Positions 14,784-20,985 of a stretch of 64,000 bases of DNA are shown here, piece by piece. The stretch's first letter is position 1. The number at the start of each line of letters is the position of its first letter. The stretch is taken from the NCBI RefSeq assembly GCF_003323745.1, contig NZ_QOIL01000002.1, positions 1 to 64,000 of the forward strand, in the 5' to 3' direction. The notes under the pieces were generated by a model that was given only the letters and a program-made list of their open reading frames with translations, was not told the DNA's origin and did no database searches. This DNA comes from Sphaerisporangium album. GTDB lineage: Bacteria; Actinomycetota; Actinomycetes; Streptosporangiales; Streptosporangiaceae. The translations under genes and the position numbers were made by a program.

Positions 14784-15644
14784 TCAAATCGGGGCTCTAG
14801 CCCGGATTCCGGCCGGCGGGAGTCTCTTGGCCGGCCAGCGGAAGCCGGAGCGTGAAACGCGCCCCGCCGATGGGCGCGTCCTCGACGGACAGGATCCCGT
14901 GGTGGCGTCGGCGATCTCGCGCGCGATGGCGAGGCCGAGGCCGGTGCCGCCGCGGTCCCGGCCGCGGGGGCCGCACAACCGGGTGAAGCGCTCGAAGACG
15001 CGTTCCCGGTCGGCCTCGGCGATGCCGCATCCGTCGTCGGAGACGGCCAGTTCCCCGGTGCCGTCGTGGCGGGTCACGTCGACCGCCACGACGCTCCTGG
15101 CGTACCGCTGGGCGTTGTCCAGCAGGTTGGTGAGCAGGCGGCCGATCTGGATGGGGACGATGTCGACGTGGACCTCCTGGTCGAGCCGCGTCCGCAGGGC
15201 GATCTTGTCCATCCGGCGGGAGACCTCCGCCTGGACCAGCAGCGCCAGGTTCACGGGCCTTCGCTCGGCCGGCGTGTTCCCGTTGAGCCGCGACAGCAGG
15301 AGCAGGTCGCCCATGACCGCCTCCATGCGGTCGATGTCGTCCAGCGCGTGCGTCAGGACCTCGTGCAGGTCCTGCTCACCGGGGTGGAGAAGGGCTTCTT
15401 CCAGTTGCGCGCGCAGTCCGGCCAAGGGGGTGCGCAGTTCGTGTGAGGCGTCGGAGGCGAAGTCACGCTGCCGGCGCAGTGCCCGGTTCAGCCCCCCCAG
15501 AGTGGAGGTGACGGTGCGGATGGTGCGGTCGATCTCGTCCTCGCCCGGATGCGCGGGCGTCATATCGGACGAACGCCGGGATTCTGCCGGCATGTCGATC
15601 GCGTCGATGTAGTCGCACAAACGTGTCAAGCGTCGCAGGTCCAT
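14784..15644 (-). CDS. Histidine kinase without sensor domain; C-terminus frameshifted
   Basis: A HisKA/HATPase kinase of 286 residues as read. The phosphoacceptor is His68 in DFASDASHELRTPLAGLR, the N box is LLTNLLDNAQRYA, and the G boxes are SDDGCGIAEADRERVFERF and RGGTGLGLAIAREIADA. No transmembrane or input domain precedes the kinase core; the short N-terminus looks like a HAMP remnant. After ADA at about 14904 the reading frame departs. The expected ending, with HHGILSVEDAPIGGARFTL, is in the next frame and stops at 14797, so one base appears to be missing. GGAGG precedes the ATG at 15644. It probably pairs with the upstream NarL-type regulator. Confidence 0.8.
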   Translation of the reverse strand: MDLRRLTRLCDYIDAIDMPAESRRSSDMTPAHPGEDEIDRTIRTVTSTLGGLNRALRRQRDFASDASHELRTPLAGLRAQLEEALLHPGEQDLHEVLTHALDDIDRMEAVMGDLLLLSRLNGNTPAERRPVNLALLVQAEVSRRMDKIALRTRLDQEVHVDIVPIQIGRLLTNLLDNAQRYARSVVAVDVTRHDGTGELAVSDDGCGIAEADRERVFERFTRLCGPRGRDRGGTGLGLAIAREIADATTGSCPSRTRPSAGRVSRSGFRWPAKRLPPAGIRARAPI

Positions 15645-15857
15645 GTCCTTCCTCCCTCGGCGCGCGCCCACCGGACACCGGGGCGTGTGGATCGCCGGTG
15701 AGGTGCATGTCGCGCGTGCCCGTCGGACACGGTGACGGCCCGCCGACGTCGTGCGACGGGGTCCTGTCCAGACATGTCGACCACGCTAGAGGTTCGGCCG
15801 ATGGCCCGCGACCCTCATGTGGTCCGAACACACCCCTCAGATGGGCTGAACGTGGGC

Positions 15858-16523
15858 TCAGCGGGGGGAGTGCGGGCCGGGCATCAGGCCGGTGCGGATG
15901 GCCACGACGACCGCTTCGAGCTGGCTGTGCGCGCCCAGCTTCGTCATGAGGTTCTTGACATGGCCACGGGCCGTGTGCGGGCTGACGACGAGGCGTCCGG
16001 CGATCGACCGGGGATCGAGCCCCTCGCCCATCAGGCCGAGGACCTCCAGCTCGCGGTCGGTCAGCATGGCCCAGTTCCCCCGCACGGCCTGGTGCGGCCC
16101 GGCGGGGGCGAGGTGGGCGAGGAGCGCTTTGAGTGTCCGGCCCTCGACCATGATGATCTTCTCGTCGGCCGCGGCGCGGATCGCGCGGAGGATGTCGGGG
16201 AACGCGGCGTCCTTGGCCAGGAACCCGGCCGCGCCCGCCGCCGCCGCGGCCGTGAACAGGCCGGGGTCGACGTCGGCGGTCAGGATGAGCACACGGGCCC
16301 GCGGCCGTGACGCCTTGATCCGCCGGGTGCCCTCGATACCGTCGAGGTCGGGCAGATGCACGTCCATGAGCACGACGTCGGGGTGCCGTGCCTCCGTGAG
16401 GGCGAGCGCGTCCCCCACGGTCGGGACGGCGCCCACGCAGTCCATGTCGGGCTGCGCGCCGATCGCGATCTCCAGCGCTCCGGCCAGCGCCCGCTGGTCC
16501 TCGACGACGAGAACCCGGGTCAT
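15858..16523 (-). CDS. NarL/LuxR-type response regulator
   Basis: A 221-residue two-domain response regulator. The receiver domain has the acidic pair (VVEDQ), phosphoacceptor Asp54 in VVLMDVHLPDLDG and the conserved Thr/Lys region (ILTAD; FLAKDA). The C-terminal LuxR HTH reads LTDRELEVLGLMGEGLDPRS, then VSPHTARGHVKNLMTKLG. GGAG lies 7 nt before the ATG. It is transcribed leftward toward the kinase at 14784-15644 (213 bp between) and is divergent from kaiB. It is therefore a candidate output regulator of both the kinase and the Kai island. Confidence 0.92.
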   Translation of the reverse strand: MTRVLVVEDQRALAGALEIAIGAQPDMDCVGAVPTVGDALALTEARHPDVVLMDVHLPDLDGIEGTRRIKASRPRARVLILTADVDPGLFTAAAAAGAAGFLAKDAAFPDILRAIRAAADEKIIMVEGRTLKALLAHLAPAGPHQAVRGNWAMLTDRELEVLGLMGEGLDPRSIAGRLVVSPHTARGHVKNLMTKLGAHSQLEAVVVAIRTGLMPGPHSPR

Positions 16524-16793
16524 CGGCGGGCTCCGCTCGGTCCCATCGTGCGCCTCCGCTCCGCGGCCCTGTGGCCCACCATCGGGCTGACAAAAAGGAT
16601 AAATAGCTTTAAATCGGGCATCTCCGCTTTGATGGGAGACGCCGGGGTGTCCGCACGCTTCGTCCAACGGTCCTGGTCACGACGTTACGCGCGGTACGTC
16701 GCGGCGATCGAGGCGGGCCGGTCGCAGAGGTCTTCGCGAGGTGGGGGTGTCGGTGGCGATGACGCATCCGGGGGCGGGACGGCGGGGGCTCGC
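16524..16793. promoter_or_regulatory. Shared divergent promoter region of kaiB operon and response regulator
   Basis: This 270-bp region separates two divergent starts. Its centre (about 16587-16617, ctgacaaaaaggataaatag and on) is strikingly AT-rich for this genome and is the likely promoter site for one or both directions. A frame continuous with kaiB runs upstream through this region from ATG 16632 but has no KaiB-family sequence before 16794. Confidence 0.55.
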
Positions 16794-17093
16794 GTGACCG
16801 TCTACTCCTTCCGGCTGTATGTGGCGGGCAAAACCGAGCGGTCCCAGACCGCGGAGGTCAACCTGCGCTTCCTGTGCGACTCAAGGCTTCCCGGCGGGTA
16901 CGAGGTCGAGATCGTCGACGCCTCCGAACGCCCCGACCTGGCGGAGGACGGGCGCATCCTCGCCACGCCCACGGTGGTCCGGCTCGCGCCGCTCCCTCAG
17001 CGACGGGTGATCGGGGACCTGTCCGACCACGGCCGCGCCGCCGTCGCCCTCGGCCTGCCGGCCGCGGACGAGCTGCCCCCGGATAGGCGGTGA
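16794..17093 (+). CDS. kaiB: KaiB-like thioredoxin-fold protein
   Basis: A 99-residue protein matching the KaiB family along its length: FRLYVAGKTERSQTAEVNLR at the start, YEVEIVDASERPDLAEDGRI in the middle, and the proline-rich LATPTVVRLAPLPQRRVIGD and LSDHGRAAVALGL at the end. In cyanobacteria KaiB binds the ATPase ring of phosphorylated KaiC. Here it is directly coupled to a KaiC homologue through a GTGA overlap. No kaiA is present. GTG at 16794 gives the family-length protein and follows GGCGGGGG; a longer N-terminus in frame is possible but looks non-homologous. Confidence 0.9.
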   Translation: MTVYSFRLYVAGKTERSQTAEVNLRFLCDSRLPGGYEVEIVDASERPDLAEDGRILATPTVVRLAPLPQRRVIGDLSDHGRAAVALGLPAADELPPDRR

Positions 17094-18541
17094 CGATGAC
17101 CGGCGGCGACGCGATCAAGCGGGTCCCCACGGGGATCAACGGATTCGACCAGATCGCCCTGGGCGGCCTCCCCGCGTGCAGGTCCACGCTGGTGAGCGGC
17201 ACCACCGGCAGCGGCAAGACGCTGTTCGCCGTCGAATTCCTCGCGCGTGGCATCACGACCTTCGACGAGCCCGGGGTGTTCGTCACCTTCGAGGAGACCT
17301 CCGCCGACATCCGGCGCAACTCGGCCTCGCTGGGCTTCACGATCGACCGGTGGGAGGGCGCGGGGAAGTGGGCGTTCGTCGACGTGTCGGCGAGCCTCGG
17401 CGAGGAGGAATCGGCCGTCGGCGCCTACGACTTCGGCGCGCTGCTGTCGCGCGTCGGGCACGCCGTCCGCAGGACCGGAGCCCGTCGCGTCGCGGTCGAC
17501 TCGCTGGGCTCGATCTTCCTGCGCTTCGCCGACGTCGGGATCGTCCGCCACGAGCTGGCCCGGATCGCCGGCGCGCTCGAGGAACTGGGAGTGACCTCGG
17601 TGGTCACCGCCGAGCGGCCCGAGGAGTACGACGGCGTCACCCGCTACGGGGTCGAGGAGTTCGTGTTCGACAACGTCATGATCCTGCGCAACGTCCTGCG
17701 GCGGCAGCGGCGCAGCCGCACCATCGAAATCGTCAAGTTCCGCGGCGCGCAGCACCGCACCGGCGAATGGGTCTTCACCATCGACGGGCGGGAGGGGATC
17801 GTTGTCGTCCCGATCGCGTTCCTCGCCTCTCGTGAGACCGCGTCATCGGCCCGCGTCTCCTCCGGCAACGCCGAACTGGACCGGATGTGCGGCGGCGGCT
17901 TCTTCCGGGACGGGATCGTGCTGGTCAGCGGGCCCTCCGGCGCGGGCAAGACGTTGACGGGGCTCGCCTTCACCGCCGCCGGGGTCGCCGCGGGGGAGCG
18001 CTGCCTGCACTGGAGCTTCGACGAGACGCGCGAGCAGCTCGTGCGCAACGCCGGCGGCTGGAACCTCGACCTCGCGGCCATGGAGGCGTCCGGTCTGCTC
18101 AGGATCGTGTCCGGGTACCCGGAGGCGGCGTCGCTCGAAGACCACTTCCTGGAGATCAGGCGGGCCGTCGAGGAGTTCGCGCCCGCCCGGCTCGTCGTCG
18201 ACCCGCTGTCCGCGCTGGAGCGCGTCGCCAGCCCGAAGGCGCTGCTGGACTTCGTGCTCGCGCTGACGGCCATCCTGCGCCGCCGCGAGATCACGACGCT
18301 GTACGTGTCGGCGCCCGGCGGGCGGTTCACGCCGGTGGACCCTCCGGTGATCGCGGGTCTGGTGGACATCTCGATCATGTTCCGGTACACCGAACGCGAC
18401 GACGAGATCCGGCGTGCCATCGCGGTCCTCCAGTCGCGAGGTTCCGCCCACGATCACCGCATCCGCGACGTCACCATCGACGGCACCGGCATGCACATCG
18501 GCGAGGGCATGCGAAACGGCACCCCGGACGGCGCGAAGTGA
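17090..18541 (+). CDS. kaiC: KaiC-family double-domain ATPase lacking the phosphosites
   Basis: A 483-residue protein with two RecA-like domains. CI has Walker A GTTGSGKT (37-44) and the catalytic pair in VFVTFEET (Glu68-Glu69). CII has Walker A GPSGAGKT (281-288) and FDET at 310-313, where KaiC has YEES. C-terminal KaiC landmarks are RAIAVLQSRGSAHDHRIRD and MHIG. Aligning VIAGLVDISIM with the clock protein's HISTITDTIIM puts Ala422 and Gly423 at Ser431 and Thr432, and Asp417 at Thr426. Autophosphorylation at these sites is therefore impossible. ATP binding and hexamer formation remain plausible. It is in an operon with kaiB and a PAS kinase. GTG 17090 or ATG 17096 could be the start. Confidence 0.93.
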   Translation: MTMTGGDAIKRVPTGINGFDQIALGGLPACRSTLVSGTTGSGKTLFAVEFLARGITTFDEPGVFVTFEETSADIRRNSASLGFTIDRWEGAGKWAFVDVSASLGEEESAVGAYDFGALLSRVGHAVRRTGARRVAVDSLGSIFLRFADVGIVRHELARIAGALEELGVTSVVTAERPEEYDGVTRYGVEEFVFDNVMILRNVLRRQRRSRTIEIVKFRGAQHRTGEWVFTIDGREGIVVVPIAFLASRETASSARVSSGNAELDRMCGGGFFRDGIVLVSGPSGAGKTLTGLAFTAAGVAAGERCLHWSFDETREQLVRNAGGWNLDLAAMEASGLLRIVSGYPEAASLEDHFLEIRRAVEEFAPARLVVDPLSALERVASPKALLDFVLALTAILRRREITTLYVSAPGGRFTPVDPPVIAGLVDISIMFRYTERDDEIRRAIAVLQSRGSAHDHRIRDVTIDGTGMHIGEGMRNGTPDGAK

Positions 18542-18547
18542 GGCCTG

Positions 18548-19612
18548 ATGAAGGATCGCCGGCCTGACCGAAGGCCCGTGACGGACGCCGAGCCGGGAAG
18601 GGCCGGCGACGCGAGGTCCGGCGGCGACATCAGCCAGGTGATCGTCTCGGCCTCCGCCGACGGCATCGTCGCGGTCGACGAGCGGGGGATCATCCGGCTG
18701 TGCAACCCCGCCGCCGCCGACCTCTTCGCCCGCTCGACGCGCGAGCTCATCGGCACCCAGTTCGGCTTCCCCATCGTGGCGGGCGAGTCGGCCGAGATCG
18801 ACCTGATGCTTCCCGGCGGGGGCAGGCGCGTGGTCGAGATGCGGGTCACCGCCACGATCCTGGAGGGCGAGCGGCTGTACGTCGCGGCGCTGCGCGACAT
18901 CACGCGCCACACGCACGCCGAGCGGGAACTCGAGGCGGCCCTGGACCGCCAGAACATCGTGGTGGCCATCGCGGCCCACGAGCTGCACAACCCCCTGGCC
19001 ACGATCAGCGTGCTGGTGGACGTGCTGCGCGACCGCGTGGCCGCGCTCGCCGAGGAGCAGCGGGCCGACATCGTCGACCGCATCGCCGGCCGCGTGGCCC
19101 GCCTGCAGAGCCTGGTCCGCAAGCTCCTCATCGCCTCGACCATCGACATCGGCGGCGTGTCCGGCGCCGCGGAGCGCGTGCCGGTGCTGGAGTTCATGCT
19201 CGAACAGCTCGGCGAACTGGACGGGGGGTCCCAGGACGTCCACCTGTCGTGCAGCCCCGACCTGGTGGCCCTCGTGGACCGCCAGGAGTTCTCCGCGATG
19301 CTCGGCAACTACCTGGAGAACGCCTTCGCCTACGGGCGCCCGCCGGTCGAGGTGTCGGCGGTCGAGCGGGCGGGCTGGGTGGAGGTCCGGGTGCGCGACC
19401 ACGGCGCGGGCGTGCCCGAGGCGTTCGTGCCCTGGCTGTTCGAGCGTTTCAGCCGTGAGCCGGGGGTCGAACGGGAGACCGAGGGAACGGGGCTCGGCCT
19501 GTGGATCGTCCGCAGCCTCGCCCGGGCCAATGGCGGCGACGCCTGGTACGAACCCGACGCGGACGGCTGCTTCTGTCTCCGCCTGCGGCGCGGTGACGCC
19601 CGGTCCGCCTAG
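18548..19612 (+). CDS. PAS-domain histidine kinase linked to kaiBC
   Basis: A 354-residue soluble sensor kinase. Residues about 28-120 form a PAS fold (VIVSASADGIVAVDERGIIR, CNPAAADLFARS, ALRDITRH). HisKA follows, with His144 in IAAHELHNPLATISVLVDVL. The HATPase domain has an N box (MLGNYLENAFAYG) and G boxes (RDHGAGVPEAFVPWLFERF; EGTGLGLWIVRSLAR). It has no membrane segment. It starts 6 nt after the kaiC stop, so the three genes form one operon, and the kinase is the natural partner for reading the KaiC state. Its 3' end overlaps the convergent gabT-like gene by 4 nt. Confidence 0.92.
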   Translation: MKDRRPDRRPVTDAEPGRAGDARSGGDISQVIVSASADGIVAVDERGIIRLCNPAAADLFARSTRELIGTQFGFPIVAGESAEIDLMLPGGGRRVVEMRVTATILEGERLYVAALRDITRHTHAERELEAALDRQNIVVAIAAHELHNPLATISVLVDVLRDRVAALAEEQRADIVDRIAGRVARLQSLVRKLLIASTIDIGGVSGAAERVPVLEFMLEQLGELDGGSQDVHLSCSPDLVALVDRQEFSAMLGNYLENAFAYGRPPVEVSAVERAGWVEVRVRDHGAGVPEAFVPWLFERFSREPGVERETEGTGLGLWIVRSLARANGGDAWYEPDADGCFCLRLRRGDARSA

Positions 19613-20985
19613 AGCGCCGAGAGCGCCTTCTCCAGGATCGACAGTCCTTCTTCGAGCAGGGCGTCGGAGATCGCGAGCGGGGGCAGGAAGCGCAGGACGT
19701 TGCCGTAGGTGCCCGCGGTGAGGACCACCAGGCCCTCGGCGTGGCAGCGGCGGGCGATCTCGCCGGTGACGGCCGCGTCCGGCTGCTTGGAGCCCGGCAC
19801 GACCAGCTCGATCGCGATCATCGCGCCGCGCCCGCGCACGTCGCCGATGACGTCGAATCGCTCGGCCAGCGCGCGCAGCCGGGGCAGCATGACGGCCTCG
19901 ACGCGCCGGGCCCGCTCCACCAGGCCCTCCGCCTCGATCGTCTCCAGCACGGCCAGCGCGGCCTCGCAGGCCAGCGGGTTGCCGCCGTAGGTGCCGCCGA
20001 GGCCGCCCACGTGGACGGCGTCCAGCAGCTCGGCCCTGCCGGTGACGGCGGCGAGGGGCAGGCCGCCCGCGATGCCCTTGGCGGTGCAGATGATGTCGGG
20101 GACGATGCCCTCGTCCTCGCAGGCGAACAGGTGGCCGGTGCGGGCGAAGCCGGTCTGCACCTCATCGGCGACGAACACGATGCCGTTGGCCTTGGCGTAC
20201 TCGGCGAGCCTGGGCAGGAAGCCGCGGGCCGGCACGACGAAGCCGCCCTCGCCCTGGATCGGCTCGATCACGATCGCCGCGACGTTGGCCGCGCCGATCT
20301 GCTTGTCGATCGCGTCGATGGCCTGCGCCGCGGCCTCCTCGGCGCAGTTCTCCGGGCCGGTGGGCCAGCGGTACGGGTAGGCCATGGGCATGCGGTAGAC
20401 CTCGGGGGCGTACGGGCCGAACCGGTGCTTGTACGGCATGTTCTTCGCCGTCAGCGTCATGGTCAGCAGCGTGCGGCCGTGGTAGCCGTGGTCGAACACC
20501 ACGACGGCCTGGCGGCCGGTCGCGTGCCGGGCGACCTTCACGGCGTTCTCGACGGCCTCCGCGCCCGAGTTCAGCAGGAACGAGCGCTTCTCGTGGTCGC
20601 CGGGGGTGAGCCGGTTGAGCTTCTCGCACACCTCGACGTACGCCTCGTACGGCGTGACCATGAAGCAGGTGTGGGTGAAGTCGGCGACCTGCCGCTGGAC
20701 CCGCTCGACCACGCGCGGCGCGGCGTTGCCGACCGTGGTGACGGCGATGCCGGAGCCGAAGTCGATGAGGGAGTTGCCGTCCGCGTCCACGACCACGCCG
20801 CCGCCCGCGTGGGTGACGAAGACCGGCAGGGTGGTCCCGATGCCCGGCGGCACGGCTGCCTGCTTGCGCGCGAACATCTCCCGCGACCTCGGGCCGGGGA
20901 TCTCGGTGACCAGGCGGCGCTCCTGCGGGAGCGAGGGGCCGCCGTGCGCGAAGGGCTGCTCGTGTGCGTCACGCTCGGTGCTCAT
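19609..20985 (-). CDS. gabT: 4-aminobutyrate--2-oxoglutarate aminotransferase (GabT-like)
   Basis: A 458-residue class III transaminase. Family marks are HTCFMVTPYEAYVEVCEKLN, LNSGAEAVENAVKVAR, FDHGYHGRTLLTMT, IEPIQGEGGFVVPARGF, FVADEVQTGFARTGHLFA and the PLP lysine in CTAKGIAGGLPLAAVTG. It is closer to GabT than the class III enzyme at 8562-9887. It converts GABA (or 5-aminovalerate) and 2-oxoglutarate to succinate semialdehyde and glutamate. It is divergent from a PucR regulator and near an aldehyde dehydrogenase (23481) that could oxidise the product. Succinate semialdehyde as that enzyme's substrate is inferred. Confidence 0.9.
   Translation of the reverse strand: MSTERDAHEQPFAHGGPSLPQERRLVTEIPGPRSREMFARKQAAVPPGIGTTLPVFVTHAGGGVVVDADGNSLIDFGSGIAVTTVGNAAPRVVERVQRQVADFTHTCFMVTPYEAYVEVCEKLNRLTPGDHEKRSFLLNSGAEAVENAVKVARHATGRQAVVVFDHGYHGRTLLTMTLTAKNMPYKHRFGPYAPEVYRMPMAYPYRWPTGPENCAEEAAAQAIDAIDKQIGAANVAAIVIEPIQGEGGFVVPARGFLPRLAEYAKANGIVFVADEVQTGFARTGHLFACEDEGIVPDIICTAKGIAGGLPLAAVTGRAELLDAVHVGGLGGTYGGNPLACEAALAVLETIEAEGLVERARRVEAVMLPRLRALAERFDVIGDVRGRGAMIAIELVVPGSKQPDAAVTGEIARRCHAEGLVVLTAGTYGNVLRFLPPLAISDALLEEGLSILEKALSAL

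Follow-up and report, generated by a model that had tools for sequence, protein, structure and literature searches.

The first 64,000 nucleotides of contig NZ_QOIL01000002.1 of Sphaerisporangium album (hereafter the window) carry a five-gene cassette built around kaiB and kaiC. A kinase gene, here called HK1, and the gene of a NarL-type response regulator are read leftwards, and kaiB, kaiC and a PAS histidine kinase gene are read rightwards from a shared intergenic region. We put at about one in two the probability that this cassette is a self-contained nucleotide-state switch that works without a KaiC phosphorylation cycle and feeds a kinase and a regulator. Since the KaiC of the window has lost both residues that are phosphorylated in the clock protein, the cassette looks, from its sequence, more like an energy-state switch than a clock. 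In the proposed mechanism, KaiC would be a two-ring ATPase, presumably hexameric, with the catalytic residues of its CI ring retained, and KaiB would bind the ADP-holding CI ring, by analogy with Rhodobacter sphaeroides. The kinase encoded downstream would read the KaiB/KaiC state with its PAS domain and phosphorylate the divergently encoded NarL regulator. The latter would change transcription, possibly, and more speculatively, from its own divergent promoter. HK1 would be a lineage-specific second kinase acting on the same regulator.

The 341 genomes of the family were searched with up to 4 (KaiC), 14 (PAS) and 8 (regulator) candidates scored per genome, a limit that may have hidden weaker matches. 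KaiC reached E 1e-40 or better in 21 of them. Nineteen of these form a close clade, and two (G038 and G218, 38-39% identity) are distant and lie outside it. In the 18 clade genomes beside the window's, KaiC is about 58-71% identical over most of the protein, one fragment included. A scan of named genomes with the single KaiC protein returned no relative, and a rescan with a KaiC alignment returned 38 loci, in Streptosporangium, Microbispora, Planotetraspora, Herbidospora, Actinomadura, Actinoallomurus, Saccharopolyspora, Kutzneria, Streptomyces, Actinopolymorpha and other genera. An even draw across the phylum gave matches at E 1e-60 or better in 18 of 396 genomes, namely the window's own and 17 labelled as of the same phylum but not the same class. 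A tree of 61 KaiCs unites the 41 actinomycete rows in a single group (SH-aLRT 100, by a quick method with no bootstrap); L096, an outgroup from a metagenome-assembled genome, was kept out of the 41. kaiB lies beside kaiC at all 41 clade loci, and the five genes together recur at 10. Streptosporangium amethystogenes carries the same cassette. The original prediction had named the co-conservation of the five genes and the phylogeny of KaiC among its checks; the co-occurrence of the genes supports the circuit that it proposed.

kaiC (17090..18541, forward strand) encodes a protein of 483 residues with two RecA-like domains (Pfam, two KaiC ATPase stretches, E 5e-99), arranged in tandem and each provided with a Walker A motif, that of CII being intact. 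Its AlphaFold model (mean pLDDT 84.2) matched KaiC in all 50 of the 50 PDB matches listed, aligned over ~470 columns; confidence is low at residues 411-420, directly before the phosphosite position. Residues A422, G423, D311 and E312 align with positions 431, 432, 318 and 319 of the Synechococcus elongatus protein. Thus, the two phosphorylated residues of a clock-type CII domain, S431 and T432, are replaced by Ala and Gly, and the catalytic E318 by Asp, while the equivalent of T426 is not Thr, being a gap in one alignment and Asp in the other. A phosphorylation clock was rejected for this KaiC on the evidence of A422, G423 and D311. For the same reason, the term "clock-like", which had been applied to the module, finds no support. 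The catalytic glutamate pair of CI (E77/E78) is EE in the window and in 37 of the 41 clade KaiCs. The loss of the phosphorylation sites with CI and KaiB kept would be expected if only the KaiB/nucleotide part of the mechanism had been retained.

Across the clade, site positions were read off the designed KaiC 8zn6_F, the window protein being checked against S. elongatus chains. The equivalent of residue 431 is Ala in 34 of the 41 proteins (Asp in 2, Thr in 2, Ser in 2, Asn in 1), and that of residue 318 is Asp in 40. The commonest 431/432 pair is A-S (19/41), followed by A-G (10) and A-R (3). Neither site has a Ser, Thr, Asp or Glu in 15 of the 41, including all 10 loci of the HK1 type. The view that the whole clade is site-less, which had been formed on loci of the family only, had to be corrected in the light of these figures. 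Two Streptomyces KaiCs (L070 and L081) have an Asp-Ser pair, a natural look-alike of the phosphomimetic S431D. Outside the clade (18 rows, L096 and L120-L136), Ser is found at position 431 in 15 of the 18, within the motif HISTLTD in 7, and the EE pair of CII is present in all 18. Because the outside rows mostly keep Ser431 and all keep the EE of CII, the residue changes of the clade look derived.

kaiB (16794..17093, forward strand) encodes a 99-residue protein that carries a KaiB domain (Pfam 2.2e-22; best PDB match, KaiB of 8fwj, E 2e-20) and is linked to kaiC. The two genes overlap by 4 nucleotides (17090-17093) and the PAS kinase gene follows kaiC after 6, the three forming a contiguous, same-strand set of the kaiBC-PAS/histidine kinase operon type. 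No kaiA was seen among the open reading frames of the window that were looked at, no search aimed at KaiA having been made. In R. sphaeroides, KaiB attaches to KaiC in the ADP state at any level of phosphorylation, and less so as the ATP-to-ADP ratio rises (PMC10076222). Five distant KaiC loci from other families of the Actinomycetota (L131, L132, L133, L135 and L136) show kaiC followed by two tandem kaiB matches.

The gene following kaiC (18548..19612, forward strand) encodes a PAS-HisKA-HATPase_c kinase of 354 residues (Pfam), the PAS domain spanning about 18608-18922. The N-terminus of the kinase is thus a PAS domain and not a KaiB-like domain of the SasA type. At E 1e-12 or better, the window PAS is matched in 20 of the 341 family genomes: in 19 of the 19 with a clade KaiC versus 1 of the 322 others (G043). 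In 12 genomes of relatives, picked from the 38 named loci to span output types, the KaiC locus supplied the best match in every case (E 6e-13 to 4e-39), and the next best was 2.5e-4 or worse. Ten of the 12 matched at 3.2e-30 or better; the others are L073, where the domain is split (2e-14), and L096 (6e-13), where the PAS gene lies beyond KaiC on the opposite strand. The second-best match in the window's own genome has an E-value of 4e-7. What follows the PAS domain varies: among the 41 clade outputs, 32 are PAS-HisKA-HATPase, 5 PAS-SpoIIE and 1 PAS-GAF-HisKA_3, and a PAS match is absent from 3. The SpoIIE assignment was made by Pfam for four of the five proteins and from a 77% match for the fifth, that of Streptomyces sp. 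HNM0575 (L073:7565-7874), whose PAS lies in two frames but which was still counted as PAS-SpoIIE. The PAS domain is thus tied almost only to KaiC, independently of the output attached to it, which suggests that it reads the KaiB/KaiC state. In addition, the PAS exceeds the kinase core in conservation in 403 of the 496 pairs that can be formed from 32 PAS kinases (mean 64% vs 59%), and the domain may be held in place by KaiC binding. We put forward, tentatively, a wider proposal: actinomycetes would possess a phosphorylation-free Kai switch in which KaiB binding alone reports ATP/ADP, and a PAS subfamily devoted to KaiC, with no relation to SasA's KaiB-like domain, would be the plug-in KaiC reader on varied outputs (NarL-linked histidine kinase, SpoIIE, GAF-HisKA_3, GGDEF-EAL). 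In other families of the Actinomycetota, three loci (L125, L129 and L130) have a PAS 38-44% identical to that of the window, beside GGDEF, GGDEF-EAL or HisKA-type matches.

The regulator (15858..16523, reverse strand) consists of a receiver and a GerE/LuxR helix-turn-helix domain (Pfam Response_reg 2.2e-21, GerE 7.8e-14), which places it in the NarL/FixJ type. At E 1e-50 or better it is found in 16 of the 341 family genomes: in 15 of the 19 with a clade KaiC, and in G313. At the clade loci it accompanies 23 of the 32 PAS-HisKA outputs and none of the 8 scorable loci with another output, L074 being left unscored at a contig end (Fisher p 3e-4, uncorrected for kinship). Thirteen loci have the regulator without HK1 (a contig end truncates L070, and L086 in part). 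Two genomes of a genus other than that of the window bring the kinase and the regulator together directly. In G041 (77% complete), a KaiC fragment without CI, the PAS kinase and the regulator follow one another on the same strand, and kaiB was not matched nearby. In G043 (93% complete), in which no KaiC match was found, the PAS kinase adjoins the regulator on the same strand, the latter being cut by a contig end. Such co-occurrence and direct neighbourhood suggest that the PAS kinase transfers phosphate to the regulator. It can also be noted that KaiB and its docking domain, CI, were apparently lost together in G041 (L145:4400-5245).

The NarL regulator is found with another partner elsewhere. 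In G313, which has no kaiBC match, it is followed by a 485-residue kinase that is 38% identical to HK1 over the aligned part and whose N-terminal stretches appear hydrophobic by eye. Hence, the regulator has the PAS kinase as its neighbour in some genomes (G041, G043) and an HK1-like kinase in another. The G313 kinase is probably membrane-bound, and HK1, a HisKA-HATPase_c kinase in which no sensor domain is recognised (14784..15671, reverse strand; Pfam HisKA 1.8e-12, HATPase_c 3.8e-20), may be a sensor-less version of such a kinase. Homologues of HK1, 52-58% identical, occur in nine other loci. Since HK1 is present at only 10 of the 41 clade loci (contig ends precluded scoring it in L070, L072 and L074 and allowed a partial score in L086), and since this distribution amounts to a single change on the tree, it is not a general part of the cassette. 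The original prediction had the five genes acting as one circuit; sequence comparisons support the circuit as proposed, a co-inherited module with the PAS kinase tied to both KaiC and the regulator, but do not make HK1 a general member of it. Moreover, HK1 is apparently frameshifted near 14900 in the window, where five of its nine relatives match again in another frame (14898-14830). The remaining four give a single-frame alignment down to 14790-14805. HK1 is probably impaired in the S. album strain, and a sequencing error could be the source of the shift.

Between the regulator and kaiB lies a divergent intergenic region (16524..16793). Its length of 270 bp, the overlap and spacing of the kai genes, and the place and order of the five genes had all been described correctly, and the five reading frames were confirmed with Pfam domains. 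The region had also been described as AT-rich, which does not hold for it as a whole: its GC content is 68.9%, a value below which about 16% of 270-bp windows fall, and there is only a short AT patch near 16590-16615. A block at 16679-16702, with the core GACGNTAC, lies upstream of kaiB and recurs in 9 of the 10 five-gene loci, which makes it a candidate operator or promoter. It was found in none of the 19 loci that lack the regulator or are unscorable for it. Because it is rare among the other loci with a regulator (1 of 13, at a different distance), it is not claimed as a binding site.

The most direct alternative to the phosphorylation-free switch is a canonical KaiC timer, that is, an hourglass or clock driven by autophosphorylation and dephosphorylation of CII and read by the PAS kinase. 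KaiB, a two-domain KaiC and a PAS kinase do resemble the operons of Rhodopseudomonas palustris and R. sphaeroides, which pair KaiB and a two-domain KaiC with a PAS protein or kinase and have no kaiA (PMC4794148, PMC6627678), and the intact Walker A of CII fits such a timer as well. It is contradicted by the replacement of S431, T432 and E318 and by the T426 position described above; it has been argued that cyclic timing is probably beyond a KaiC that lacks the ability to phosphorylate two residues (PMC3164672). We regard a timer of this kind as very unlikely in the window. Nevertheless, 26 of the 41 clade KaiCs have Ser in place of T432 (the pair being Ser-Ser in two), so that phosphorylation may persist in part of the group. 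This counts against a phosphorylation-free switch as a property of the clade, as does the fact that site loss extends beyond it (P-A in L129, A-S in L133, T-S in L136). Similar reservations concern the output. The regulator of G313 occurs without KaiC, it was not found near 9 of the 32 PAS-HisKA loci, and its association with the output type reduces to three independent pairs on the tree, a number that does not permit testing. In Actinopolymorpha rutila, three loci contain kaiBC but no PAS match.

Ligand binding is common among PAS domains, and the PAS kinase could have been co-inherited with KaiBC while its PAS senses a ligand or redox state of its own and KaiBC acts elsewhere, a possibility to which the A. 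rutila loci lend some weight. The AlphaFold model of the kinase (mean pLDDT 76.8) matches PAS/LOV kinases, light-sensing ones included, with modest TM-scores. The photoactive Cys motif of LOV domains, GxNCRFLQ, was not seen by eye in the window PAS, where the likely place reads RLCNPAAADLF. We consider an independent sensor rather unlikely: the same PAS subfamily stands beside KaiC when the output changes, it is almost exclusive to KaiC genomes, and it is clearly less conserved than the kinase only where KaiC was not found. The case in point is the G043 kinase, the extreme of 34 (PAS 36% vs kinase 48%); L091 is the only other row in which the relation is reversed, and slightly. The G043 outlier is a single genome, 93% complete, which also tempers the switch reading. 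Alternatively, the cassette could be a passenger, either mobile or lost repeatedly, that is now in decay in the S. album strain. Its distribution is indeed patchy, a strong KaiC match being present in 2 of 11 genomes of the genus (the other nine have weak ones only, E 5e-5 or worse) and a clade KaiC in 19 of the 341 of the family. HK1 is apparently frameshifted, and KaiC is short, with 483 residues versus up to 522 in relatives. However, the other four frames are open, the kinase, receiver and CI motifs are kept, KaiC is conserved across genera, and the HK1 frameshift is possibly a sequencing error, so that this reading seems quite unlikely. As to A. rutila itself, its three loci (L075, L077 and L088) share one 6.95 Mb contig, and L075 is followed by a gene for a two-GAF-domain protein.

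RpaA, the output regulator of the S. elongatus KaiABC-SasA-RpaA system, is of the OmpR type, whereas that of the window is of the NarL type, and the window does not keep S431/T432. Common to both are the fold and domain order of KaiB and KaiC, and an output through a kinase and a regulator, but SasA has a KaiB-like domain (PMC5520375) where the window kinase has a PAS. The proteobacterial operons differ from the window in that R. palustris KaiC keeps TSS (PMC4794148) and R. sphaeroides KaiC S413/S414, while the subclade of the window has lost both sites. The window, in turn, has the order kaiB-kaiC and a divergent NarL regulator attached, with or without HK1. Outside cyanobacteria, genes for kinases or GGDEF/EAL proteins have been reported to follow kaiC or kaiB (PMC3164672), and kaiBC beside PAS kinases or GGDEF/EAL proteins is already known (PMC3164672, PMC4794148, PMC6627678). 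The kaiB-linked KaiCs listed in the available text of PMC3164672 are ST or SS, whereas those of the window clade are mostly A-S, A-G or A-R, with outputs that include SpoIIE. KaiCs without phosphorylation sites are likewise already known from myxobacteria, where fifty have been reported (PMC11832031); they form a distinct clade, and a linked cassette of kaiB, PAS kinase and NarL regulator is not described in the available part of that source. In the subset of the literature under open licence, we found no description of a kaiB-linked, site-less actinomycete clade, of swapped outputs on one PAS subfamily, or of the divergent NarL regulator. Outside cyanobacteria, the outputs of KaiC are concluded to differ of necessity from that of Synechococcus (PMC5520375). 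The clade offers KaiB-linked KaiCs with and without phosphosites and one PAS subfamily on different outputs. This variety makes two questions testable: can KaiBC signal without a phosphorylation cycle, and which component reads KaiC physically outside cyanobacteria?

The limits of the cassette were defined by comparison within the genus. A saccharopine dehydrogenase-like gene is present in 9 of the 11 genus genomes and a class-III aminotransferase gene in all 11 (the window's included), and in the eight other genomes that carry both of these flanking genes, the two are adjacent and the cassette is missing. The missing segment corresponds to 14791..19609; at the empty-site junctions, homology to the window ends at 14790-14803 and restarts at 19602-19625. 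Since these limits match the five genes, the cassette extends almost exactly from HK1 to the PAS kinase. Insertion at this site, rather than loss in all eight, is the simpler reading. A terminator-like hairpin was noticed by eye between the flanking genes at the empty sites. The amine-catabolic neighbours had been taken as a clue to a metabolic input. This was rejected, because in eight genomes the same genes neighbour each other without the cassette and are thus no evidence on input; on other grounds, a metabolic (ATP/ADP) input is likely. In Sphaerisporangium corydalis this site is empty and the strain's own cassette lies on another contig, between genes whose homologues are ~8.6 kb apart in the window's genome. 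As judged with a crude gene caller, most genes next to the other family loci belong to no shared cluster; the exceptions are two Streptosporangium loci with neighbours in common, four of the Actinoallomurus type likewise, and a few clusters shared here and there. At all four Actinoallomurus-type loci (L051-L054), a conserved gene follows the PAS kinase, with more shared genes beyond; in L054, where Pfam was applied, it encodes a GFO/IDH-type oxidoreductase.

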